A stretch of 64,000 nt of DNA, from IMG/VR virus record IMGVR_UViG_3300043419_000731, positions 56,466 through 120,465 of that record; one strand, 5' to 3'. The notes beneath the pieces are model-generated. The model saw only the letters and a program-made list of their open reading frames with translations. It did no database searches and was not told where the DNA came from. Numbering within the stretch: position 1 is the first letter of the stretch; every line of letters starts with the position of its first letter. Shown in pieces: positions 274-10,108 of the stretch. The position numbers were made by a program, and so were the translations under genes. This DNA is from a virus.

Positions 274-455
274 TATTCATACCTTTCGTTTGAAGAGTTC
301 ATTATATCAGTGGCCACTGACAAAAGGTGCTTGGTTGCATAAATCTGTCCTTCTATATCTACCACATGGATAGAACAAGGATTCTCCTCTAGGTCTTGTT
401 CTAAACTAATTAGATGCAACTTCATATATTCTAGGAAGTATGATGATCGTGTCAT
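273..455 (-). CDS. hypothetical 60-aa protein
   Basis: Starts MTRSSYFLEYMKLHL; the ATG lies two bases from the stop of the upstream gene. No known domain is visible. The last 20 or so codons run straight through the promoter at 301-322 (TGTCAG box and TATAAT), so the 3' end of this gene doubles as the control region of the next unit. That makes the exact 3' part of the reading frame less certain than the 5' part. Confidence 0.5.
   Translation of the reverse strand: MTRSSYFLEYMKLHLISLEQDLEENPCSIHVVDIEGQIYATKHLLSVATDIMNSSNERYE
301..322 (-). promoter_or_regulatory. left-arm promoter pL1 (TGTCA-N11-TATAAT)
   Basis: On the minus strand TGTCA (322-318) is followed by 11 nt and TATAAT (306-301), extended by TG one base upstream. 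The leader then reads AAACGAAAGG before the start at 273. It lies inside the upstream ORF. No Crp-type palindrome is present upstream. Confidence 0.7.
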
Positions 456-1647: not shown

Positions 1648-1669
1648 ATTATACACTGGACCACTGACA
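1648..1669 (-). promoter_or_regulatory. left-arm promoter pL2 (TGTCA-N11-TATAAT)
   Basis: TGTCA (1669-1665), 11 nt, TATAAT (1653-1648) directly preceded by TG. Leader AAACGAAAGG, then ATG at 1620. A weak palindrome TGTGT-N6-CCACA (1688-1703, two mismatches to TGTGA-N6-TCACA) is centred 42.5 nt upstream of the -10. Confidence 0.75.
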
Positions 1670-1723
1670 AATGGAATACATATGCCCTGTGTTCTACACC
1701 ACATGGATCAGAGCTGATCCCAT

Positions 1724-2880: not shown

Positions 2881-3305
2881 TAGTACGCACCTTCTTCTAC
2901 TCGGTCAATCTCAAAGTTATTCACAGACATTTCTGATGCATATGAATCAACAGTTAGATTAGAAGATACAAAGTCTTCGATACCGTCAAAGTCACCTGTC
3001 AAATCAACTTCAACAGTTGCATCAACACGAACCCAAACAGTAACTTCAATTTCCTTGGTTAGAGGAACATCGAACATCTCTGCAATCTCAGCCAATGATT
3101 CTTGGTCTGATGAATCTGCGTAGTTCTCTTCAAGGAATGTACGGAGTTGTGATTCCTTGCGGTACCACTGGTTCTGCTTCTCAGTAAGATTCTTAAGTTG
3201 CCAAACCATGTGACGAATATCTGATTCAGTATATGTTTTAGTAATTAGGTCATCACCCTCGACCCACTGCAACTGCATTGTTACTGGTGTTGTTGTTTCT
3301 TCCAT
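2880..3305 (-). CDS. nested shorter product from internal start
   Basis: 141 residues starting MEETTTPV, in frame with the longer ORF. It has a complete promoter at 3337-3358, a leader CAACAACGAAAGAGG and an AAACAATG start, the same layout as every other left-arm first gene. The acidic C-terminal half resembles a folded domain of unknown function. I consider this the main product from pL3. Confidence 0.6.
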   Translation of the reverse strand: MEETTTPVTMQLQWVEGDDLITKTYTESDIRHMVWQLKNLTEKQNQWYRKESQLRTFLEENYADSSDQESLAEIAEMFDVPLTKEIEVTVWVRVDATVEVDLTGDFDGIEDFVSSNLTVDSYASEMSVNNFEIDRVEEGAY

Positions 3306-3494
3306 TGTTTCCTCTTTCGTTGTTGTTGTAGAAGGAATTGTAGCATCGACCACTGACAAAAGGATGCAGGCGGTCCCGCATCTGCAAGTGAGGTCCATCA
3401 CACCATTAGGCCATCCATAGCCATCCTTAAATGTGTATTCAATTAATGCATCACAATCACCTGGGCATATCCAGGTATATTTCTGATAGTTCAT
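2880..3494 (-). CDS. two-domain protein with zinc-binding N-terminus and nested internal start
   Basis: 204 residues from MNYQKYTWICPGDCD, placed by promoter pL4 and a GAAAGAGGG ribosome site. The N-terminal part has CPGDC and CRCGTAC, a likely zinc site. The C-terminal 141 residues (from METTT-type ATG at 3305-3303) have their own promoter (pL3), leader and AAAGAGG ribosome site inside the frame. Either two proteins share a frame, or an earlier stop between two genes has been lost. Function of both parts is unknown. Confidence 0.6.
   Translation of the reverse strand: MNYQKYTWICPGDCDALIEYTFKDGYGWPNGVMDLTCRCGTACILLSVVDATIPSTTTTKEETMEETTTPVTMQLQWVEGDDLITKTYTESDIRHMVWQLKNLTEKQNQWYRKESQLRTFLEENYADSSDQESLAEIAEMFDVPLTKEIEVTVWVRVDATVEVDLTGDFDGIEDFVSSNLTVDSYASEMSVNNFEIDRVEEGAY
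3337..3358 (-). promoter_or_regulatory. left-arm promoter pL3
   Basis: TGTCA (3358-3354), 11 nt, TACAAT (3342-3337) with TG one base upstream. Sits inside the coding frame of the 2880-3494 gene. Upstream palindrome at 3387-3402. Confidence 0.7.
3387..3402. promoter_or_regulatory. Crp/GlxR-type palindrome (one mismatch)
   Basis: AGTGA-N6-TCACA, centred 52.5 nt upstream of the pL3 -10 box, within the coding frame of the upstream gene. Same spacing as the perfect site at 9826-9841. Confidence 0.5.
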
Positions 3495-3519
3495 TTTCCC
3501 TCTTTCGTTGTATAGGAGT

Positions 3520-3541
3520 ATTATAGGGCATAGCACTGACA
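3520..3541 (-). promoter_or_regulatory. left-arm promoter pL4
   Basis: TGTCA (3541-3537), 11 nt, TATAAT (3525-3520). Leader with ACAACGAAAGAGGG, then ATG at 3494. Confidence 0.75.
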
Positions 3542-3548
3542 AATGGAA

Positions 3549-3614
3549 TAGTTTTCAGGGATTTTCTTTGTGATCCGTAACACAAAAAACTGGCCTTCCC
3601 TATTGCGGGCGCAT
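3549..3614. repeat. composite intergenic repeat, copy B
   Basis: Contains TTTTCAGGG (3552-3560), TCCGTAA (3574-3580) and GCGGGCGC near 3606-3613. Includes TGTGA-N6-ACACA (3569-3584), a near-match to the Crp-type palindrome, centred 51.5 nt upstream of the pL4 -10. No DnaA-type box. Confidence 0.5.
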
Positions 3615-3646
3615 ACTTATGCATTGATATGCATAAATATGTTTTG

Positions 3647-3720
3647 CGATCCATAACGGACTTGAACCGTCGACCTCTACCGTGACAGGGTAGCGCTCTA
3701 ACCAACTGAGCTAATGGACC
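3647..3720 (-). tRNA. tRNA-Asp (GUC)
   Basis: Complete cloverleaf on the minus strand: acceptor GGTCCAT / ATGGATC, D arm GCTC / GAGC with a GG loop, anticodon arm CTACC-CTGTCAC-GGTAG (anticodon GTC), T arm GACGG-TTCAAGT-CCGTT. No CCA is encoded. It sits in the gap between two transcription units. Confidence 0.93.
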
Positions 3721-3763
3721 AATAAGGTGAGCAGTTTTAAATCTTGCTCAGGATTATTTTTAT

Positions 3764-4768
3764 TTAGAAAGTTGCAACCATTCGATACAACTTATTTTTT
3801 TCTGCGGTAAGAACAGGGTCAAATCCTGATGCACCCGCCATAAGTGATTCAGAGTTGCCACGCCCTGAACGATAGTAATCTAGGCGCTCAGTTAGCGCAT
3901 TGAATGCGCCCCACTTTGTGCCCTTGATTGTGGCGTTAGTTGGTGAGTTATGATAAAGGTCATCGATTAGGACAACTTTATTTTCCCACTTCTTGATTGC
4001 GCCCTTAGCATCTTTCTCAGGCTTTGGATAGATTGTCTGAATCAACTTTGAGAATTCAGCATCGGTGATTGCTTGAGAATAAAGTGCTTGAGCATTCTTC
4101 TCAAATTCATCAAAGTATCCAAGCGCAAGCCCAAGAGTTTCACGAGCAACTTGAATGCGACCTTCAACAGATTGCGTGTGGCGAATCTTGAAAGATTGCT
4201 TAGCGCTCTTCATTGCAAGGTTGAGAGTGTTTTGGCATACAACACGAACAGGGGTAACCGCTGCTTGAACAGCAACAGAACCATCGTGTGATGTCCATAC
4301 GATTAGATATAACTTGGTTTCGTCATTGGCGCCTTGTGGGTCAAGAACCATTGTGCGAGGAATATCCACAGTGCCGAATACAACTTTGCCCTGCTTAAGA
4401 GAACCAGCAGATTCCCAACGGCAGTCAGCGTTAGCATCGTGAATTGCATCAGCGAATGCAAACAATTCTTCATTCTGCACAGGCTTGTAGCGCTTACCAA
4501 CAGTAGCAAGAACATCAGTTCCGCCATTGAATGGGTTATCACGCAACACGAGAGATGCAGTTGAAACATCATTCCAAGATTCTGGAATATGCTCAGCGAT
4601 TGGAGAAAGACGAACATTCCAATTTGCTAACTTTGCTTCTTCAAGCATTGTTGCAGTTGTAACTTCTTCATCTTGTGTAAAGATGCGGTTTGCAAGGTTG
4701 TGCCAAGCAGGAGCACCACGGAGAGCGAATGCAACTTCGCCATTTTCGACTTCGAGATTATGAGCCAT
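3764..4768 (-). CDS. DUF932 / TIGR03299 phage-plasmid-like protein
   Basis: 334 residues from MAHNLEVENGEVAFAL. The start at 4768 is chosen over an upstream ATG because it follows GAAAGGCAAAAA and promoter pL5. The opening segment, with FALRGAPAWHNLANR, is characteristic of the DUF932 (TIGR03299) family found in phages and plasmids, whose role is not established. Length agrees with the family as I remember it. It is the only gene visible between pL5 and the tRNA, so it is probably monocistronic and strongly expressed. Confidence 0.85.
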   Translation of the reverse strand: MAHNLEVENGEVAFALRGAPAWHNLANRIFTQDEEVTTATMLEEAKLANWNVRLSPIAEHIPESWNDVSTASLVLRDNPFNGGTDVLATVGKRYKPVQNEELFAFADAIHDANADCRWESAGSLKQGKVVFGTVDIPRTMVLDPQGANDETKLYLIVWTSHDGSVAVQAAVTPVRVVCQNTLNLAMKSAKQSFKIRHTQSVEGRIQVARETLGLALGYFDEFEKNAQALYSQAITDAEFSKLIQTIYPKPEKDAKGAIKKWENKVVLIDDLYHNSPTNATIKGTKWGAFNALTERLDYYRSGRGNSESLMAGASGFDPVLTAEKNKLYRMVATF

Positions 4769-4797
4769 TTTTTGCCTTTCGTTTGGTTGATTAAGCA

Positions 4798-4819
4798 ATT
4801 ATAACAGGTGGGTCTGACA
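4798..4819 (-). promoter_or_regulatory. left-arm promoter pL5
   Basis: TGTCA (4819-4815), 11 nt, TATAAT (4803-4798) with TG one base upstream. Leader AAACGAAAGG, ATG at 4768. Confidence 0.78.
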
Positions 4820-4857
4820 TTTACAAGGTTAGTTAGTCATTTGTCCGAATTGTCTGA

Positions 4858-4873
4858 CGTGATCAATCTCACA
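4858..4873. promoter_or_regulatory. Crp/GlxR-type palindrome (one mismatch)
   Basis: CGTGA-N6-TCACA, centred 62.5 nt upstream of the pL5 -10 box. It abuts the AAATTTTCAGGG core of repeat copy C and follows TGTCCGAATTGTCTG (4842-4856), which recurs next to the palindrome at 8108. Confidence 0.6.
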
Positions 4874-4934
4874 AATTTTCAGGGTTTTCCACAGATCCCC
4901 GTAACGCTGTGGATAACCCCGCAAAAGCGGGGGC
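4873..4934. repeat. composite intergenic repeat, copy C, with DnaA-type boxes
   Basis: AAATTTTCAGGG (4873-4884), TTTTCCACA (4885-4893, one mismatch to a DnaA box), CCCGTAA (4898-4904), TGTGGATAA (4908-4916, a perfect TTATCCACA on the minus strand), then a CCCCGC / GCGGGG hairpin (4917-4932) with an AAAA loop. Confidence 0.7.
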
Positions 4935-4939
4935 CGAGC

Positions 4940-4956
4940 TGGGGATTAACTCCCCA
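4940..4956 (-). terminator. possible terminator hairpin
   Basis: TGGGGA / TCCCCA stem overlapping the stop codon of the 4946-5206 gene, immediately followed on the minus strand by the second GC-rich hairpin of repeat copy C. No T-run follows. Confidence 0.4.
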
Positions 4957-5206
4957 ACTCTACCTTAGTCGCATTTCGAATTATGTTTTTATTAAATTCA
5001 ACTGTCTTCTCATCAAGAAACATTGCAGTTGTCTTTTTCTTTTTTACATTATCAAAAACGTAAGCATTTACTTTGCCGCTAAAGTTTCTGATGTTACTGA
5101 ATACTAATTCAGTTAAGTATTCTTTATCAACACCTTGATCCGAATAAATCGTGATGTCGTTCATTTTGTTTGCATCGTAGATTTCTACTCTGAAACGATT
5201 TGCCAT
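4946..5206 (-). CDS. hypothetical 86-aa protein
   Basis: Starts MANRFRVEIYDANKMNDITIY with AAAGG nine nt upstream. Alternating beta-strand-like and Lys-rich segments; no recognised domain. It has no promoter of the left-arm type and probably shares the transcript of the 5278-5694 gene, reaching it past a short GC hairpin at 5231-5240. Confidence 0.65.
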   Translation of the reverse strand: MANRFRVEIYDANKMNDITIYSDQGVDKEYLTELVFSNIRNFSGKVNAYVFDNVKKKKTTAMFLDEKTVEFNKNIIRNATKVELGS

Positions 5207-5230
5207 TGTATTACCTTTGTTAGTAGTTGT

Positions 5231-5240
5231 CCCCGAAGGG
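5231..5240 (-). terminator. short CCC-TTC-GGG hairpin
   Basis: On the minus strand CCC-TTC-GGGG forms a very small hairpin between two genes. A longer version of the same sequence occurs at 5755-5768. It could be a partial terminator or a processing site. Confidence 0.3.
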
Positions 5241-5277
5241 AGAGCAGTTTGGCGACATACTCAGGTCGTTGGATTAG

Positions 5278-5694
5278 TTAGAGATAACGAGCAATTTGCT
5301 TCATTGTTGAAGCATTAACTGTTTCCTCATCTGTCATCTTTAGAATTGTGAGAGCATTTGTGATGTCCTCTACAATTTCGTTGTATGAGTGCTGGTGCAT
5401 AATTGTAAAATCACGCTGTGGCTCTGTTGGCAAATCTTTCTCTGCAACTGTCAAATCAAAGTCAATGTTGAGAGTGTTATTCCAAGAGCGATAAGAAGTG
5501 CGAAGGTTCTCTGACTTCTTGATGTTTGCGATTGCATAATCCTGAAGTTCCTTCTGCCAAATCTTACGAGCCTTTTCATACTTAGCCTCGTTTGCGCCTT
5601 GCTCAGCATACTCTTTCTTGATTGTTGCTAACTTTGTTTCCAAAGCCTTAATTACCTTTGGTGTTGCCACCTTTACTGTGATTGCTCTTGACAT
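5278..5694 (-). CDS. hypothetical coiled-coil protein
   Basis: 138 residues starting MSRAITVKVATPKVIKAL. The N-terminal 60 residues are Lys/Glu/Ala-rich and probably coiled coil; the rest is mixed. The start follows GAAAGAGGAAAA and promoter pL6. No family recognised. Confidence 0.7.
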   Translation of the reverse strand: MSRAITVKVATPKVIKALETKLATIKKEYAEQGANEAKYEKARKIWQKELQDYAIANIKKSENLRTSYRSWNNTLNIDFDLTVAEKDLPTEPQRDFTIMHQHSYNEIVEDITNALTILKMTDEETVNASTMKQIARYL

Positions 5695-5729
5695 TTTTCC
5701 TCTTTCGTTGGTTGGTTGATGTTATGAGT

Positions 5730-5751
5730 ATTATAGCAGGGGGGTCTGACA
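5730..5751 (-). promoter_or_regulatory. left-arm promoter pL6
   Basis: TGTCA (5751-5747), 11 nt, TATAAT (5735-5730) with TG one base upstream. Leader CAACCAACGAAAGAGG. No Crp-type site upstream; instead a C5/G5 hairpin (5755-5768) lies directly upstream. Confidence 0.78.
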
Positions 5752-5754
5752 TTT

Positions 5755-5768
5755 CCCCCGAAGGGGGG
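5755..5768 (-). terminator. C-rich hairpin upstream of pL6
   Basis: Minus strand CCCCC-TTC-GGGGG followed by AAAT. It would sit at the end of the upstream transcript from pL7. Stable stem, no T-run. Confidence 0.4.
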
Positions 5769-5833
5769 AGAGTTCTTACTTACGACATTGGGCTAGAACA
5801 CTCTCCTAAACTGCCCCTGTTTCGATTATTTAG

Positions 5834-6010
5834 TTATACTAGAGAACTTGCTGAAACTGTTGTCCAGCGTGTTTCCTTCGTTGGCATTTCTAGCAACACA
5901 CGCACCGAGCCAGATGCTTGTGGGTGGATTTCTTTAATCACACCTGTCTTCTTTGACTTGAGGGTGGTGAATAAATCTCCAACCTGATACAACTTGTCTT
6001 GTATTGTCAT
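5834..6010 (-). CDS. hypothetical 58-aa protein
   Basis: Starts MTIQDKLYQVGDLFTTLKSK, with AGAAGGAAGC as ribosome site and promoter pL7 upstream; the longer open frame only covers the promoter. The sequence looks like a small beta-barrel (KOW/SH3-like pattern: VGDLFTTLKSKKTGVIKEI...GSVRVLL), which is a guess. Function unknown. Confidence 0.6.
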   Translation of the reverse strand: MTIQDKLYQVGDLFTTLKSKKTGVIKEIHPQASGSVRVLLEMPTKETRWTTVSASSLV

Positions 6011-6038
6011 TTGCTTCCTTCTTTCTGTGTAGGGTAGT

Positions 6039-6060
6039 ATTGTAGCATTGGGGTCTGACA
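6039..6060 (-). promoter_or_regulatory. left-arm promoter pL7
   Basis: TGTCA (6060-6056), 11 nt, TACAAT (6044-6039) with TG one base upstream. Confidence 0.75.
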
Positions 6061-6098
6061 TCTGTCTAGCCCTATCTCACTATTTGAGAGAATTATTG

Positions 6099-6114
6099 TG
6101 TGATTAGTATCACA
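6099..6114. promoter_or_regulatory. Crp/GlxR-type palindrome, perfect
   Basis: TGTGA-N6-TCACA, centred 62.5 nt upstream of the pL7 -10. It overlaps the stop codon of the 6110-6250 gene. Confidence 0.65.
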
Positions 6115-6250
6115 AGTAGTCGGTTAGGTCGCCATCCATTATTTCGCTGACATCCACGCCTTCAGACTCAGCAATTGCATCCCATAGATCGGATTCTGTA
6201 AAATCTCCTTCAGGGTGCCACTCAGCTAAAATCTCATAGACATTACTCAT
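6110..6250 (-). CDS. hypothetical acidic 46-aa protein
   Basis: Starts MSNVYEILAEWHPEGDF and ends DGDLTDYL. Its ATG overlaps the upstream gene's end. Strongly acidic. Its stop codon lies in the operator palindrome of the next unit. Confidence 0.6.
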   Translation of the reverse strand: MSNVYEILAEWHPEGDFTESDLWDAIAESEGVDVSEIMDGDLTDYL

Positions 6251-6518
6251 CGTAGTCCTCCTGTGGTAGCCAAGCATCTAGGTGGTGAGCATCTACGATA
6301 GCCGATGCAGGGCAAGTATCTTGACCTCGCCAAAATACGCCTTCAGGAAGGCTAATCTCACGGGAGTAGTCCTCCTCATAGTATGCGTCAATTGCTTCGA
6401 TGCAAGCATCTACCATAGCGACGGGGACGGGTGGATAATGATTAGCCTGAAGGTGATAAGCAAGTCCAGCCTCAAGTGATAAATCTTCTGCAAGTCCTAC
6501 TGCGGTTGTGTATCCCAT
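6243..6518 (-). CDS. conserved actinophage-type hypothetical protein
   Basis: 91 residues starting MGYTTAVGLAEDLSLEAGLA with NHYPPVP and DAHHLDAWL. I recall near-identical patterns among actinophage early genes of unknown function. The start follows AAAGGAAAT and promoter pL8. The paired His in AHHLD could bind metal, but this is speculative. Confidence 0.7.
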   Translation of the reverse strand: MGYTTAVGLAEDLSLEAGLAYHLQANHYPPVPVAMVDACIEAIDAYYEEDYSREISLPEGVFWRGQDTCPASAIVDAHHLDAWLPQEDYDE

Positions 6519-6550
6519 TTTATTTCCTTTGTTCGTTGGTTGATAAGAGT

Positions 6551-6572
6551 ATTGTATCAGGGGGCACTGACA
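6551..6572 (-). promoter_or_regulatory. left-arm promoter pL8
   Basis: TGTCA (6572-6568), 11 nt, TACAAT (6556-6551) with TG one base upstream. Leader CAACCAACGAACAAAGG. No Crp-type site. Confidence 0.72.
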
Positions 6573-6592
6573 TTATCAGTGCCCCCATTAGA

Positions 6593-6811
6593 TTATTTAG
6601 AGATAGATAGTTCTGCCCAAGAGTAGCCCGTGTTTGCAACTTCCAAAACCTTTGCTATTTCTAGTGCAGCGTGTGTTGCTTCTGAACACATCTTTGTAAG
6701 TTCATCCTCAGATAAAGATAATAGGGCAGGCAGTAATCGAGCCTCAATTTTATCTAGGTCAATAGTAGCCATAAAACTAACTGTGTGTGGTACTTTCATT
6801 ACATTAGCCAT
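6593..6811 (-). CDS. hypothetical 72-aa protein
   Basis: Starts MANVMKVPHTVSFMATIDLDK; helical middle (ARLLPALLSLSEDEL). Single gene between pL9 and pL8. No family recognised. Confidence 0.65.
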   Translation of the reverse strand: MANVMKVPHTVSFMATIDLDKIEARLLPALLSLSEDELTKMCSEATHAALEIAKVLEVANTGYSWAELSISK

Positions 6812-6840
6812 TTGTTGCCTTTCGTTGTTGGTATGAGAGT

Positions 6841-6862
6841 ATTATAGCCGAAGCCACTGACA
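6841..6862 (-). promoter_or_regulatory. left-arm promoter pL9
   Basis: TGTCA (6862-6858), 11 nt, TATAAT (6846-6841). Leader CAACAACGAAAGG. Confidence 0.78.
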
Positions 6863-6895
6863 TTTCATAATCCATTTACGGCGTGTCGCAGCTTT

Positions 6896-6911
6896 TGTGA
6901 GAATGATCACA
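6896..6911. promoter_or_regulatory. Crp/GlxR-type palindrome, perfect
   Basis: TGTGA-N6-TCACA, centred 57.5 nt upstream of the pL9 -10. This is the one site about half a helical turn out of phase with the other eight. Confidence 0.65.
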
Positions 6912-6972
6912 AATTTTCAGGGTCTGTGGATAACTCCCGTAAGCCTGTGGAAAACCCCCCACAAAAGAGAGG
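6911..6972. repeat. composite intergenic repeat, copy D, with DnaA-type box
   Basis: AAATTTTCAGGG (6911-6922), TGTGGATAA (6925-6933, perfect TTATCCACA on the minus strand), CCCGTAA (6936-6942), a degenerate TGTGGAAAA (6946-6954) and a C-rich/G-rich end. CGGCGTGTCG at 6879-6888 is the inverted form of the GACACGCCG motif clustered at 8.1-8.9 kb. Confidence 0.65.
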
Positions 6973-6986
6973 GCCTGCATATTTAT

Positions 6987-7118
6987 TCAGTCTTCTGAAT
7001 ATCTATGCTTGCGCTTTCGTGTATATTTTTTCTTATTGCGAACAGGGGTTGCGGCATTTGATCTCCGCAACTCCTGCACACGCTTAATTCTATTCAACAC
7101 ATTTGCATTTCTTAACAC
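6987..7118 (-). CDS. possible basic microprotein
   Basis: 43 residues from a GTG start (read MLRNANVLNRIKRVQELRRS...), very rich in Lys/Arg, ending KHRYSED. An AAGGAG site lies about 10 nt upstream, and the frame overlaps the previous small gene. The composition suggests nucleic-acid binding. Start codon and reality of the gene are uncertain. Confidence 0.4.
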   Translation of the reverse strand: MLRNANVLNRIKRVQELRRSNAATPVRNKKKYTRKRKHRYSED

Positions 7119-7194
7119 TTAACACATCTCCTTCAATATATACCGCACCAAAATCTTCACAACTATCACACACAAACATTTCTACCAGTTGCAT
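7090..7194 (-). CDS. zinc-ribbon microprotein
   Basis: 34 residues with CDSC near the N-terminus and CKC at the end. It follows the 7195-7380 gene by one base, with no separate promoter. The three or four Cys suggest a zinc knuckle. Confidence 0.55.
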   Translation of the reverse strand: MQLVEMFVCDSCEDFGAVYIEGDVLSVKKCKCVE

Positions 7195-7380
7195 TTATTT
7201 AGCCGCCTTCATCTTGTAGTTACTTGCTTCGTGAAATCTTACGACATCAAATCGTGGATTATCTTTTGCAAACATCTCCGCAAAATCTGTAACGACCTTA
7301 GAAAATAAAGCGGGGTGAGTTTTGTTGCTCATATAGTTTAGAATTTCGGCAGTTGCCACATAATCTTTGCGAGTCATCAT
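7195..7380 (-). CDS. MTRKDYV-family hypothetical protein, paralogue 1
   Basis: 61 residues, MMTRKDYVATAEIL...DNPRFDVVRFHEA. A paralogue of the 8262-8447 gene: both start MTRKDYV and share a C-terminal DNPRFD motif. I recall small phage proteins of this pattern, of unknown function. Overlaps the upstream gene by 4 nt. Confidence 0.7.
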   Translation of the reverse strand: MMTRKDYVATAEILNYMSNKTHPALFSKVVTDFAEMFAKDNPRFDVVRFHEASNYKMKAAK

Positions 7381-7583
7381 TTTGTTACGACCTTTCGTCC
7401 TTCACGATAAAATATGCGTGTATACATTTTGCCAGTTGGCATTTGGAGATTTACAGTTGCGTATTCATTAGCCCAACCCCAATCAACAAAATTGTTAAAT
7501 GCGGTGAAAGCCTCTAAAGCGTCGGCATAGTTCTTATTGAAGTGGATAGGCTTGCTATCATATGAAACAGATATCTGATACAT
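7377..7583 (-). CDS. hypothetical 68-aa protein
   Basis: Starts MYQISVSYDSKPIHFNKNY. First gene after promoter pL10, with GAAAGG upstream. Beta-rich with aromatic residues; no family recognised. The 3' end overlaps the next gene (ATGA). Confidence 0.65.
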   Translation of the reverse strand: MYQISVSYDSKPIHFNKNYADALEAFTAFNNFVDWGWANEYATVNLQMPTGKMYTRIFYREGRKVVTK

Positions 7584-7615
7584 ATAGTTTTCCTTTCGTA
7601 GTTATTTATAGAGAT

Positions 7616-7637
7616 ATTATAGCGGAGAGGTCTGACA
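7616..7637 (-). promoter_or_regulatory. left-arm promoter pL10
   Basis: TGTCA (7637-7633), 11 nt, TATAAT (7621-7616). Overlaps the stop region of the upstream gene. No Crp-type site. Confidence 0.75.
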
Positions 7638-7639
7638 AA

Positions 7640-7804
7640 TTAGTCTTCGCACTCGCAAGGCTTGGAGTAATCAAACTCGCAGAAGTAACAGCCTTGATAT
7701 TCATCATGTGCCTTGCACACATATCGGAATTGCATTTCATCGCAACAGAAGTGCGATTCATCTAGAACCGAATAAAACTCGGTTTGGTCAATTACATCTA
7801 TCAT
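7640..7804 (-). CDS. Cys-rich 54-aa protein
   Basis: Starts MIDVIDQTEFYSVLDESHF. Seven Cys (CC, VC, CYFC, CEC) with His between them suggest one or two zinc sites. The stop lies 3 nt from the pL10 TGTCA box. Follows the 7805-8005 gene with no gap. Confidence 0.6.
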   Translation of the reverse strand: MIDVIDQTEFYSVLDESHFCCDEMQFRYVCKAHDEYQGCYFCEFDYSKPCECED

Positions 7805-8005
7805 TTATTCCCCCGTATTCACCGCTACATAGCGGTATGTATCTTTAATTGAATTGGTAGGGCGAACCTGAACCTTGTAGGTATCTGCATTTGCATACCA
7901 GACATCATCATTTTTTTCTGCGGAGATAATCTCACCCTTTACAGAATTAGAGTAATACATTTTTCCCACTAGTAGGGACTCGACTGAATAAGCATTGGCT
8001 GACAT
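7805..8005 (-). CDS. hypothetical 66-aa protein
   Basis: Starts MSANAYSVESLLVGKMYYS. First gene after pL11 with AAAGAGGTGGC as ribosome site. Beta-rich pattern; function unknown. Confidence 0.65.
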   Translation of the reverse strand: MSANAYSVESLLVGKMYYSNSVKGEIISAEKNDDVWYANADTYKVQVRPTNSIKDTYRYVAVNTGE

Positions 8006-8037
8006 AGTGCCACCTCTTTCGTTGTTGTTATATGGAT

Positions 8038-8059
8038 ATTATAGCCTATGGGACTGACA
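8038..8059 (-). promoter_or_regulatory. left-arm promoter pL11
   Basis: TGTCA (8059-8055), 11 nt, TATAAT (8043-8038). Leader CAACAACGAAAGAGG. Confidence 0.78.
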
Positions 8060-8107
8060 AAGTGTTAATTTGGCAAGGTTTTATCTCAATATGTGGAGCG
8101 TGGGCTA

Positions 8108-8123
8108 TGTGATTAGCATCACA
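8108..8123. promoter_or_regulatory. Crp/GlxR-type palindrome, perfect
   Basis: TGTGA-N6-TCACA, centred 72.5 nt upstream of the pL11 -10. TGTCCGAATTGTCTG follows at 8130-8144, identical to 4842-4856. Confidence 0.65.
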
Positions 8124-8142
8124 TCAAAATGTCCGAATTGTC

Positions 8143-8252
8143 TGTCAAATCGACACGCCGCAAATTTTCAGGGTTTCTGTAACAATCACGTAACGACACG
8201 CCCGACCCCGTGCTTTTGCGGGCGGATCAACTTTTGTCAAGTCGACACGCCG
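8143..8252. repeat. composite repeat copy E and GTCGACACGCCG motifs
   Basis: The gap holds TGTCAAATCGACACGCCG (8143-8160), AAATTTTCAGGG (8162-8173), CACGTAA, ACGACACGCC (8193-8202), a CCCCG...GCGGG end and TGTCAAGTCGACACGCCG (8235-8252). Unlike copies C, D and F it has no TTATCCACA. No gene is seen. Confidence 0.55.
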
Positions 8253-8261
8253 TGATCTTAG

Positions 8262-8447
8262 TCACCTTTCTGCATAAACGGCTTCTTTAAACTTAGCTCG
8301 ATCAAAACGGGGATTGTCTTCCTCGAATATGTCGCACATATTATTAACTAGAAACTTTCTAGCCTCATAACTAAACATCTCGGCGGGGAAACCATGATTC
8401 ATTGAATTAAATAAACCTGCAATACGCACATAATCTTTTCTAGTCAT
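8262..8447 (-). CDS. MTRKDYV-family hypothetical protein, paralogue 2
   Basis: 61 residues, MTRKDYVRIAGLF...FEEDNPRFDRAKFKEA. Paralogue of 7195-7380. The ATG overlaps the previous TAA (TAATG). Function unknown; two divergent copies within 1 kb suggest old duplication. Confidence 0.7.
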   Translation of the reverse strand: MTRKDYVRIAGLFNSMNHGFPAEMFSYEARKFLVNNMCDIFEEDNPRFDRAKFKEAVYAER

Positions 8448-8569
8448 TAGAGAGCACCTTCCTGAAATAATCCGATTTCTAAATTAAGTAATTCTTCTGG
8501 TGTTGCATCTTCTAAATCAACCCAGCCAGCACCTTCGTCATCAAGACGGAAAAATTCAATGTGTCCCAT
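8447..8569 (-). CDS. hypothetical acidic 40-aa protein
   Basis: MGHIEFFRLDDEGAGWVDL...; TAATG overlaps on both sides. Strongly acidic. Function unknown. Confidence 0.58.
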   Translation of the reverse strand: MGHIEFFRLDDEGAGWVDLEDATPEELLNLEIGLFQEGAL

Positions 8570-8697
8570 TAGTTAGCCTCCTCTGTTCCGAACAATGCAG
8601 ACATTGTAGCGTTAGCCTGTGACATTGTAGCGATAGCCTTCTGAAGGCTTGCCTTGCGTTGCGCTTCTATGTGCGCCTTGTATTCTTCTAGGTTCAT
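8569..8697 (-). CDS. hypothetical 42-aa helical protein
   Basis: MNLEEYKAHIEAQRKASL...; first gene after pL12, with AGAAGG upstream. Almost entirely helical (Ala/Gln/Lys). TAATG overlap with the next gene. Confidence 0.58.
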   Translation of the reverse strand: MNLEEYKAHIEAQRKASLQKAIATMSQANATMSALFGTEEAN

Positions 8698-8730
8698 TAC
8701 TGACCTTCTTTCGTTGTTGTTATAGTAGGA

Positions 8731-8752
8731 ATTATAGCGGAAGGGTCTGACA
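8731..8752 (-). promoter_or_regulatory. left-arm promoter pL12
   Basis: TGTCA (8752-8748), 11 nt, TATAAT (8736-8731). Leader CAACAACGAAAGAAGG. Confidence 0.78.
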
Positions 8753-8791
8753 AATACCAGACGACACGCCGTGTTTTAAGAAATTCTTTTT

Positions 8792-8807
8792 TGTGATTAA
8801 TCTCACA
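8792..8807. promoter_or_regulatory. Crp/GlxR-type palindrome, perfect
   Basis: TGTGA-N6-TCACA, centred 63.5 nt upstream of the pL12 -10. Confidence 0.65.
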
Positions 8808-8888
8808 AAATTCCAGGGGTTGTGGATAAGTATCGTAACCTGTGGATAACCCCCCACAAAAGCGGGGGCGTGTCAAGTCGACACGCCG
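8807..8888. repeat. composite intergenic repeat, copy F, with two DnaA-type boxes
   Basis: AAAATTCCAGGG (8807-8818), TGTGGATAA (8821-8829), TCGTAA, a second TGTGGATAA (8841-8849), a CCCCC...GGGGG hairpin (8850-8867), then TGTCAAGTCGACACGCCG (8871-8888). The two TTATCCACA boxes are 20 nt apart, start to start. Confidence 0.7.
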
Positions 8889-8893
8889 TTAGG

Positions 8894-9004
8894 CTAATGT
8901 GATTCGTGCCACATCTCACGCATATCACGCCACACAAGGCGGGCCATATATAGGGCGGGGATACCGATAGCCATCTGCACGATAGTAGTTATTAGTCTAT
9001 TCAT
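8894..9004 (-). CDS. membrane microprotein
   Basis: 36 residues, MNRLITTIVQMAIGIPALYM..., one hydrophobic span (about 4-20) followed by an Arg/Glu/His tail. Preceded by GAGGAAG in the end of the previous gene. Function unknown. Confidence 0.5.
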   Translation of the reverse strand: MNRLITTIVQMAIGIPALYMARLVWRDMREMWHESH

Positions 9005-9005
9005 T

Positions 9006-9128
9006 TTATTCTTCCTCTTCTGGCGTTAACCCTAAAGCTTCAACACATTCAAAACATACTGGCGATTCAAAACGATAATCGAATAAATCATCCTCTAAAT
9101 TCATTACGCATTCTTCACAGTAGGTCAT
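9006..9128 (-). CDS. zinc-ribbon microprotein
   Basis: 40 residues with CEEC at the N-terminus and CFEC 24 residues later, a compact zinc ribbon, and an acidic EEEE end. ATGA overlap with the upstream gene. Confidence 0.6.
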   Translation of the reverse strand: MTYCEECVMNLEDDLFDYRFESPVCFECVEALGLTPEEEE

Positions 9129-9265
9129 TGCTTATTCTTCTTTCTTTTGATCATCTTGTATGCAACTAGTACAACAGTGGCGGGAATAATTACCTGCCAT
9201 GAGAAAGCGATATAGCAAACATATGTATCGAATACGAATCCGTAGTCATTAATCTCTATAGTCAT
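9125..9265 (-). CDS. membrane microprotein
   Basis: 46 residues, MTIEINDYGFVFDTYVCY..., one hydrophobic segment (about 16-35) and a Lys/Arg-rich C-terminus, so probably N-out/C-in. TAATG and ATGA overlaps with its neighbours. Confidence 0.55.
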   Translation of the reverse strand: MTIEINDYGFVFDTYVCYIAFSWQVIIPATVVLVAYKMIKRKKNKQ

Positions 9266-9363
9266 TAGTTATCCCAGCAATCTACGCAAGTTACTACATC
9301 ATCAACATCTAGCCACATACTAGAAACATCTTCATCGCAAGTGCGACATTGTAGAGTTATCAT
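9265..9363 (-). CDS. zinc-ribbon microprotein
   Basis: 32 residues with CRTC and CVDC, 21 residues apart, and acidic spacer. Overlaps both neighbours by TAATG. Smallest of the zinc-ribbon genes in the run. Confidence 0.55.
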   Translation of the reverse strand: MITLQCRTCDEDVSSMWLDVDDVVTCVDCWDN

Positions 9364-9530
9364 TACTTACCCACCTTTACATCTTGAACATTAGCACGAA
9401 ACTTTTGAGCCTTAGCGACATCGCTATCATTTAATTCTTTTATAACGCTATCTACATCCTTGATGTTGTTAGCGATGTTGTTAATAGATAGTAGGCGGTT
9501 ACCTTGCCAAATTGAATAAGTGATAGTCAT
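9363..9530 (-). CDS. hypothetical 55-aa protein
   Basis: MTITYSIWQGNRLLSINNIANN... ending VQDVKVGK. TAATG overlaps on both sides. Helical; function unknown. Confidence 0.58.
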   Translation of the reverse strand: MTITYSIWQGNRLLSINNIANNIKDVDSVIKELNDSDVAKAQKFRANVQDVKVGK

Positions 9531-9742
9531 TAGTTATCTCCAAACATTGCTAGAACGGTATCGACCTCTTCATCGGTGAGGTGGTCAATCTCAATTGCCT
9601 TAGTGAAACCGAAGACATCATCGTCTTCATCTTCTTCTTGCTCTACCTCATCATTGAGGTAAGCGTATTGGTCTGCTACATCTTCTTGAATTGTGTCCCA
9701 CTTAGAGAGTGAGTTAGAGCGGGTATCATATGAGTAAGACAT
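9530..9742 (-). CDS. hypothetical acidic 70-aa protein
   Basis: MSYSYDTRSNSLSKWDTI..., with an extreme acidic run (EQEEDEDDD) in the middle. First gene after pL13. Acidic DNA-mimic-like proteins are common in phage early regions; that role here is only a possibility. Confidence 0.62.
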   Translation of the reverse strand: MSYSYDTRSNSLSKWDTIQEDVADQYAYLNDEVEQEEDEDDDVFGFTKAIEIDHLTDEEVDTVLAMFGDN

Positions 9743-9775
9743 TTAGTTCTTCTTTCTTTAGTTTCTTATAATGGT

Positions 9776-9797
9776 ATTGTAGCCGATAGAGCCGACA
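9776..9797 (-). promoter_or_regulatory. left-arm promoter pL13 (variant box)
   Basis: TGTCG (9797-9793) in place of TGTCA, 11 nt, TACAAT (9781-9776). Confidence 0.65.
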
Positions 9798-9825
9798 TAT
9801 TGGGGGATATAGAGGGGGTGTGTCG

Positions 9826-9841
9826 TGTGAGTTACCTCACA
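9826..9841. promoter_or_regulatory. Crp/GlxR-type palindrome, perfect
   Basis: TGTGA-N6-TCACA, centred 52.5 nt upstream of the pL13 -10; overlaps the stop codon of the 9837-9992 gene. Confidence 0.62.
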
Positions 9842-9992
9842 GGCAGTTGATACACTCGCAACCCTTAGAGCGAATGAGGTACTTGAGTACCTCTTTGCGT
9901 GTGTATGTGTCTAGCCCATAAGATGAAGACACACCGCCATTGTGATACTCATGCACGATAGTGCTAAAGAGTTGTTCTGTAAGTTGAGTCAT
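9837..9992 (-). CDS. hypothetical 51-aa protein with C-terminal Cys cluster
   Basis: MTQLTEQLFSTIVHEYHN... ending KGCECINCL. AAAGGGG lies 6 nt before the start. The three clustered Cys could bind metal. First gene of the left arm, behind pL14. Confidence 0.6.
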   Translation of the reverse strand: MTQLTEQLFSTIVHEYHNGGVSSSYGLDTYTRKEVLKYLIRSKGCECINCL

Positions 9993-10022
9993 GTTCGACC
10001 CCTTTCTTGTTGTTATACCTTA

Positions 10023-10044
10023 ATTATTGCATGGGGGTACGACA
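10023..10044 (-). promoter_or_regulatory. left-arm promoter pL14 (variant)
   Basis: TGTCG (10044-10040), 11 nt, AATAAT (10028-10023). Rightmost member of the series. Confidence 0.6.
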
Positions 10045-10092
10045 AATTGCAACTCGCAAAACGGACATTAAAGACATCTTGCCAAAATACTT

Positions 10093-10108
10093 TGTGATGC
10101 TCGTCACA
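10093..10108. promoter_or_regulatory. Crp/GlxR-type palindrome, perfect
   Basis: TGTGA-N6-TCACA, centred 72.5 nt upstream of the pL14 -10. It lies between the divergent left-arm and rightward genes. No gene is seen in 10045-10245. Confidence 0.62.

Follow-up and report, generated by a model that had tools for sequence, protein, structure and literature searches.

In Escherichia coli, class I Crp sites are centred at -61.5, -71.5, -82.5 and -92.5 (PMC11894529), and in Corynebacterium glutamicum cyclic AMP (cAMP) raises the affinity of the Crp-type regulator GlxR for its site about 100-fold (PMC7026483). For control of phage genes by host Crp, coliphage T1 offers a precedent: its pir promoter is directly repressed by cAMP-Crp, which also inhibits those of dam and recE (PMC6737242). 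Single cases of such control are known, mostly from E. coli; a literature search on GlxR with phage genomes found no paper, which is weak evidence given its partial coverage. The stretch described here (the window, 64,000 nucleotides) comprises bases 56466-120465 of the 120,465-base virus record IMGVR_UViG_3300043419_000731, and its left arm carries Crp-type palindromes (TGTGA-N6-TCACA) upstream of promoters of small genes. A host regulator of the Crp/GlxR type is probably wired to this battery of promoters, binding upstream and activating from one helical face. Here about ten promoters per genome carry the Crp linkage, throughout an entire phage family. Should this reading be true, the host's carbon state directly sets the strength of left-arm gene expression, a question of phage ecology that can be tested with simple reporters.

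Between positions 3001 and 10200 the palindrome is present six times perfectly and ten times with at most one mismatch. No copy, perfect or with one mismatch, occurs in 10201-64000; the palindrome is thus not equally common in the structural half of the genome, a pattern that the first-pass annotation had held to speak against its proposal. In the whole record every perfect copy lies within the left arm. The shuffle count suggested in the same annotation was run on the left arm (1000 dinucleotide shuffles) and gave a mean of 0.01 perfect palindromes, with a maximum of 1; a chance origin was rejected on this expectation versus the six perfect copies present. When the gap of TGTGA-Nk-TCACA was varied from k = 0 to k = 19, left-arm matches were present at k = 6 only, and among the 5-6-5 inverted repeats of the arm TGTGA leads six, while each other leading arm was seen once. 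The nine palindromes reported earlier were recovered at the same coordinates with the same mismatches (six perfect, three with one mismatch). Eight of the nine distances fall on a ten-base ladder, as reported; measured to the centre of the -10 box (Table 1), they are larger than the earlier values by 2.5. All nine sites precede promoters, which had been described as uniformly of the TGTCA type; those at 9797 and 10044 read TGTCG, and the -10 box at 10044 is AATAAT, weaker than the others, which are small corrections to the earlier description.

The palindrome would most likely be bound by a host Crp/GlxR protein, because no Crp-family or cyclic nucleotide monophosphate (cNMP)-binding protein was found in the phages. 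The record itself yielded no Crp helix-turn-helix (HTH) domain, with both Crp domains of C. glutamicum detected as positive control, and 20 relatives yielded no cNMP-binding domain under the same positive control; a phage-encoded Crp was rejected on these grounds. A query of IMG/VR with the CRP of Mycobacterium tuberculosis returned no close relative. The palindrome is that of the actinobacterial GlxR and CRP regulons, and an actinobacterial setting is suggested here by WhiB; the targets differ, being phage genes, and the host protein is presumed. It is unlikely that a regulator encoded by the phage, rather than host Crp, binds the palindromes as a battery of operators. Many copies in one arm do resemble the operator arrays that exist in other actinophages, and a DNA-binding protein could hide among the left-arm products, most of which have no recognised family. 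However, the motif matches the Crp consensus exactly, the domain searches were negative as given above, no HTH was recognised in the left-arm proteins scanned, and the sites, at 45-85 bp upstream of the -10 box, are placed as expected for an activator and not for a repressor.

The spacing was followed in about 160 loci, namely the DUF932 neighbourhoods of 80 virus contigs and 80 loci found with the composite pattern (the contigs partly overlap), which together contain 835 distinct promoters followed by a reading frame. With one exception, the composite-pattern loci share proteins with the window, so the arrangement is a trait of one phage family, in which 444 perfect sites were counted in 1.33 Mb. 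Most sites are centred 45, 55, 65 or 75 bp from the middle of the -10 box, give or take one base; the rung means, over 506 distinct site-promoter pairs of the relatives, are 45.08, 54.78, 64.68 and 74.95. The period of the ladder is 10.1 bp (bootstrap 95% interval 9.8-10.35), and none of 5000 random sets was as concentrated. The same peaks appear when TGTCA is not required and every -10 hexamer that follows a perfect site is counted. At the DUF932 promoter, whose site stands at exactly 65 in 25 of 27 orthologues, the entropy of the arms is 0.36 bits versus 0.87 for N6 and 0.97 for the flanks, a fixed-frame measure that is uninformative for orthologous groups with a varying rung. The Crp-type sites, their helical phasing and their restriction to the left arm, as first annotated, therefore hold, and the ladder is kept over hundreds of promoters in related phages. 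These hundreds of natural spacing variants amount to a ready-made helical-phasing experiment.

The ladder also appears in a divergent relative (L301), a 110-kb phage contig in a metagenome-assembled genome (MAG) labelled cyanobacterium (RNR 79%), where sites stand 75, 54, 75, 54 and 85 bp from TGTCAG promoters. By hand count, two more sites, at 65 and 54, belong to promoters in which TTGACT or TTGATT stands 17 bp from the -10 box; one of these promoters precedes an apparent tRNA gene. Since the ladder holds at promoters with an ordinary -35 box, the phase is set against the polymerase and not only against a TGTCAG binder. It is very improbable that the ladder is a by-product of shared promoter ancestry without selection for helical phase, although many promoters are orthologous with unchanged distance. 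With a single event allowed for each combination of orthologous group and distance, 33 events were on the ladder and 7 off it (binomial P 5e-10, assuming distances uniform over 43-77 and independent groups). Orthologous promoters also switch rungs in ten-base steps; orthologues of the gene at 6060 have the site at 45 in some phages and at 55 or 65 in others, with differing spacer sequence. Common descent alone was rejected as the source of the ladder on the 33 of 40 events and the concordance of L301.

Instead of a -35 box, the unusual core promoter has TGTCA, set exactly 11 bp from TATAAT. A search for TGTC(A/G) followed at exactly 11 bp by TA(T/C)AAT gave 14 minus-strand matches in the left arm and a single further match, likely by chance, elsewhere in the record. 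In the relatives the spacer from TGTC to the -10 box is 11 in 750 pairs, and other spacings are at background except for two small groups at 24-25. In site-bearing promoters TGTCAG spans about -28 to -23, a G stands at -14, and the -35 hexamer is not conserved. TGTCAG was rejected as a WhiA box (GACAC/GTGTC). The target motif of WhiA is GACAC (PMC3781837), and GTGTC is not formed by the phage TGTCAG, since the preceding base is A or T rather than G in about 99% of the site-bearing promoters; GACAC is contained in a secondary CGACACGCC box of the phage promoters. For a phage sigma factor as reader of TGTCAG, a sub-threshold match of about 30 residues was the only result.

In transcription order the module consists of the Crp site, a spacer varying in steps of about one turn, the TGTCAG box and TATAAT; the last is the -10 box, which begins 11 bp downstream of TGTCA and is accompanied by an extended -10 G. 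Bound to the palindrome on the correct face of the helix, a host Crp dimer would aid RNA polymerase at a core promoter that lacks an ordinary -35 box. The arms, the gap and the phased upstream position point to Crp as an activator. We infer three things here, that host Crp is the binder, that it activates, and that the genes are early. A further proposal, which we hold only tentatively and think doubtful, is that the TGTCAG box with its 11-bp spacing defines a new type of promoter, in which it replaces the -35 box; a factor made or modified by the phage, for which WhiB is a candidate, would read the box, and the promoter would work only with host Crp on one face. The early programme of a widespread phage family would then join the phage factor and the carbon status of the host in an AND gate.

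A role of host Crp as a repressor or brake, with the phage genes waiting for a change in host cAMP as in coliphage T1, is judged quite improbable. T1 resembles the present case in having host Crp on several phage promoters, and the repression of its pir promoter and inhibition of dam and recE (PMC6737242) are the precedent for a brake. The T1 mode is repression, whereas the phased upstream sites of the window suggest activation, at about ten promoters and throughout a phage family. The sites never overlap the core promoter, their spacing keeps to one helical face across four turns or more, as upstream activators typically do, and a canonical -35 box is missing at most site-bearing promoters.

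With E. coli class I promoters of the lac type the phage sites share TGTGA-N6-TCACA, the location upstream of the core promoter and the one-turn steps; they differ in that the core has TGTCA 11 bp from the -10 box instead of a -35 box, and in that the phage carries the module in about ten copies. Class I activation also depends on Crp-cAMP and on the C-terminal domain of the polymerase alpha subunit. Activation by a host Crp has several points against it. With the -10 box assumed to lie at -12 to -7, the phage sites are centred at -54.5, -64.5, -74.5 and -84.5 and do not coincide with the E. coli class I centres. The first-pass claim of class I behaviour thus stands for the period of one helical turn and fails for the absolute register, which is about 3 bp (roughly 100 degrees) further upstream. 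Roughly 40% of the TGTCAG-type promoters have no site. A class of 34 promoters, to which the window's 6896 site belongs, has the site at 60-61 bp, half a turn off the ladder. The presence of Crp in the host is itself inferred. As to the siteless promoters, some genes lack a site in all orthologues, so the battery is split into Crp-linked and Crp-free promoters; the left arm of the window has four or five without a site (322, 5751, 6572, 7637 and possibly 8624). The 60-61 bp class carries CGACACGCC between site and promoter in 26 of 34 cases, versus 24 of 476 other site-bearing promoters, and a second protein may therefore reshape the DNA there.

By its predicted proteins the virus record is a WhiB-encoding relative of the Streptomyces Stanwilliamsviridae, with which its best protein matches were obtained (RNR 60-67%, DUF932 protein 50-51% and WhiB 45-51% identical); the comparison consists of these three proteins and the left-arm layout. 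A left arm of small leftward genes, resembling that of the window, is found in NootNoot, Karimac and Yaboi. Because the first 4.7 kb of the record are repeated at its end, the genome closes on itself with a length of about 115.7 kb. Its genes include those for DNA polymerase III alpha, primase, a DnaB-like helicase, RecA, RNR, thioredoxin and WhiB, and an Rfam scan found only two tRNAs. WhiB, encoded in 17 of 21 records of the phage family, is confined to actinobacteria and the phages that infect them (PMC6802176, PMC10202952). Its presence, together with the infection of Streptomyces by the named relatives, makes an actinobacterial host very probable. A genome scan for the host with the RNR protein gave six loci, in MAGs labelled cyanobacterium, alphaproteobacteria, archaeon, Candidate Phyla Radiation (CPR) and Rickettsiales; none of the six is actinobacterial and the best are phage-like contigs. 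A 110-kb phage contig (L285 / G021 contig C31) inside a MAG labelled uncultured cyanobacterium is likely a binning error. A freshwater origin of the samples is probable from the G+C content and from published work on lake phages with WhiB; the IMG/VR names give no habitat. A literature search on Crp in acI/Planktophila genomes found nothing usable.

Perfect Crp palindromes are absent from five searched left arms of Streptomyces Stanwilliamsviridae. NootNoot has promoters of the form TGTCC-N11-TAGACT, akin to the TGTC-N11 type of the window, and unlike the site-bearing promoters of the window it has kept -35 boxes of the TTG type. In its left arm (L164), CGGACA boxes stand upstream of the TGTCC promoters at variable distances, which amounts to inverted GGACA / TGTCC pairs; these may be related to the TGTC element. 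In 80 relatives of a marine MAG's phage contig, covering 0.9 Mb, no perfect site was found; the control is partial, since these loci extend only 10 kb past the RNR gene and cover part of the corresponding arm.

Table 1. Crp-type sites, promoters and other elements of the left arm (positions in the window).
Feature	Position	Strand	Site centre to -10 centre (bp)	Remarks
Palindrome AGTGA-N6-TCACA, 1 mismatch	3387..3402		55	
Promoter TGTCAG-N10-TACAAT	3337..3358	-		
Palindrome TGTGA-N6-ACACA, 1 mismatch	3569..3584		54	
Promoter TGTCAG-N10-TATAAT	3520..3541	-		
Palindrome CGTGA-N6-TCACA, 1 mismatch	4858..4873		65	
Promoter TGTCAG-N10-TATAAT	4798..4819	-		DUF932 gene promoter
DUF932 protein gene	3764..4768	-		PF06067, 188.7 bits; downstream of Crp-linked promoter
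Perfect palindrome	6099..6114		65	
Promoter TGTCAG-N10-TACAAT	6039..6060	-		
Perfect palindrome	6896..6911		60	Half a turn off ladder; adjoins GACACGCC box 6880-6887
Promoter TGTCAG-N10-TATAAT	6841..6862	-		
Perfect palindrome	8108..8123		75	
Promoter TGTCAG-N10-TATAAT	8038..8059	-		
Perfect palindrome	8792..8807		66	
Promoter TGTCAG-N10-TATAAT	8731..8752	-		
Perfect palindrome	9826..9841		55	
Promoter TGTCGG-N10-TACAAT	9776..9797	-		
Perfect palindrome	10093..10108		75	
Promoter TGTCG-N11-AATAAT	10023..10044	-		
Decayed tenth site, 2 mismatches	1688..1703		45	To promoter at 1669
Promoter TGTCAG-N10-TATAAT	1648..1669	-		
Same-type promoter without Crp site	301..322	-		
Same-type promoter without Crp site	5730..5751	-		36/36 in its gene cluster without site
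Same-type promoter without Crp site	6551..6572	-		Overlaps inverted repeat
Same-type promoter without Crp site	7616..7637	-		36/36 in its gene cluster without site
Perfect DnaA boxes TTATCCACA	4908-4916, 6925-6933, 8821-8829, 8841-8849	-		
GACACGCC box	6880-6887, 8152-8159, 8195-8202, 8244-8251, 8763-8770, 8867-8874, 8880-8887			
CCTGAAAATTT	1730-1740, 4873-4883, 6911-6921, 8162-8172	-		Near several Crp sites
Inverted repeat GGGGGCACTGA-TAA-TGTCAGTGCCCCC	6545-6575			Overlaps TGTCAG promoter

At the decayed tenth site, relatives carry a better site on rung 45 than the window does. DnaA boxes number six in the window versus 0.7 expected; they are conserved in relatives and often paired about 20 bp apart, immediately upstream of Crp sites, and the area is a possible origin or DnaA-controlled region. 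The seven copies of the GACACGCC box (0.4 expected), which includes the WhiA consensus GACAC, all lie in the left arm; in relatives its preferred distance from TGTCA is 25-26 in forward and 17-18 in reversed orientation. The repeated element CCTGAAAATTT is preceded on the minus strand by a GTTACG-like sequence. The inverted repeat is also present in relatives, and a terminator of the upstream gene may share bases there with the next promoter.

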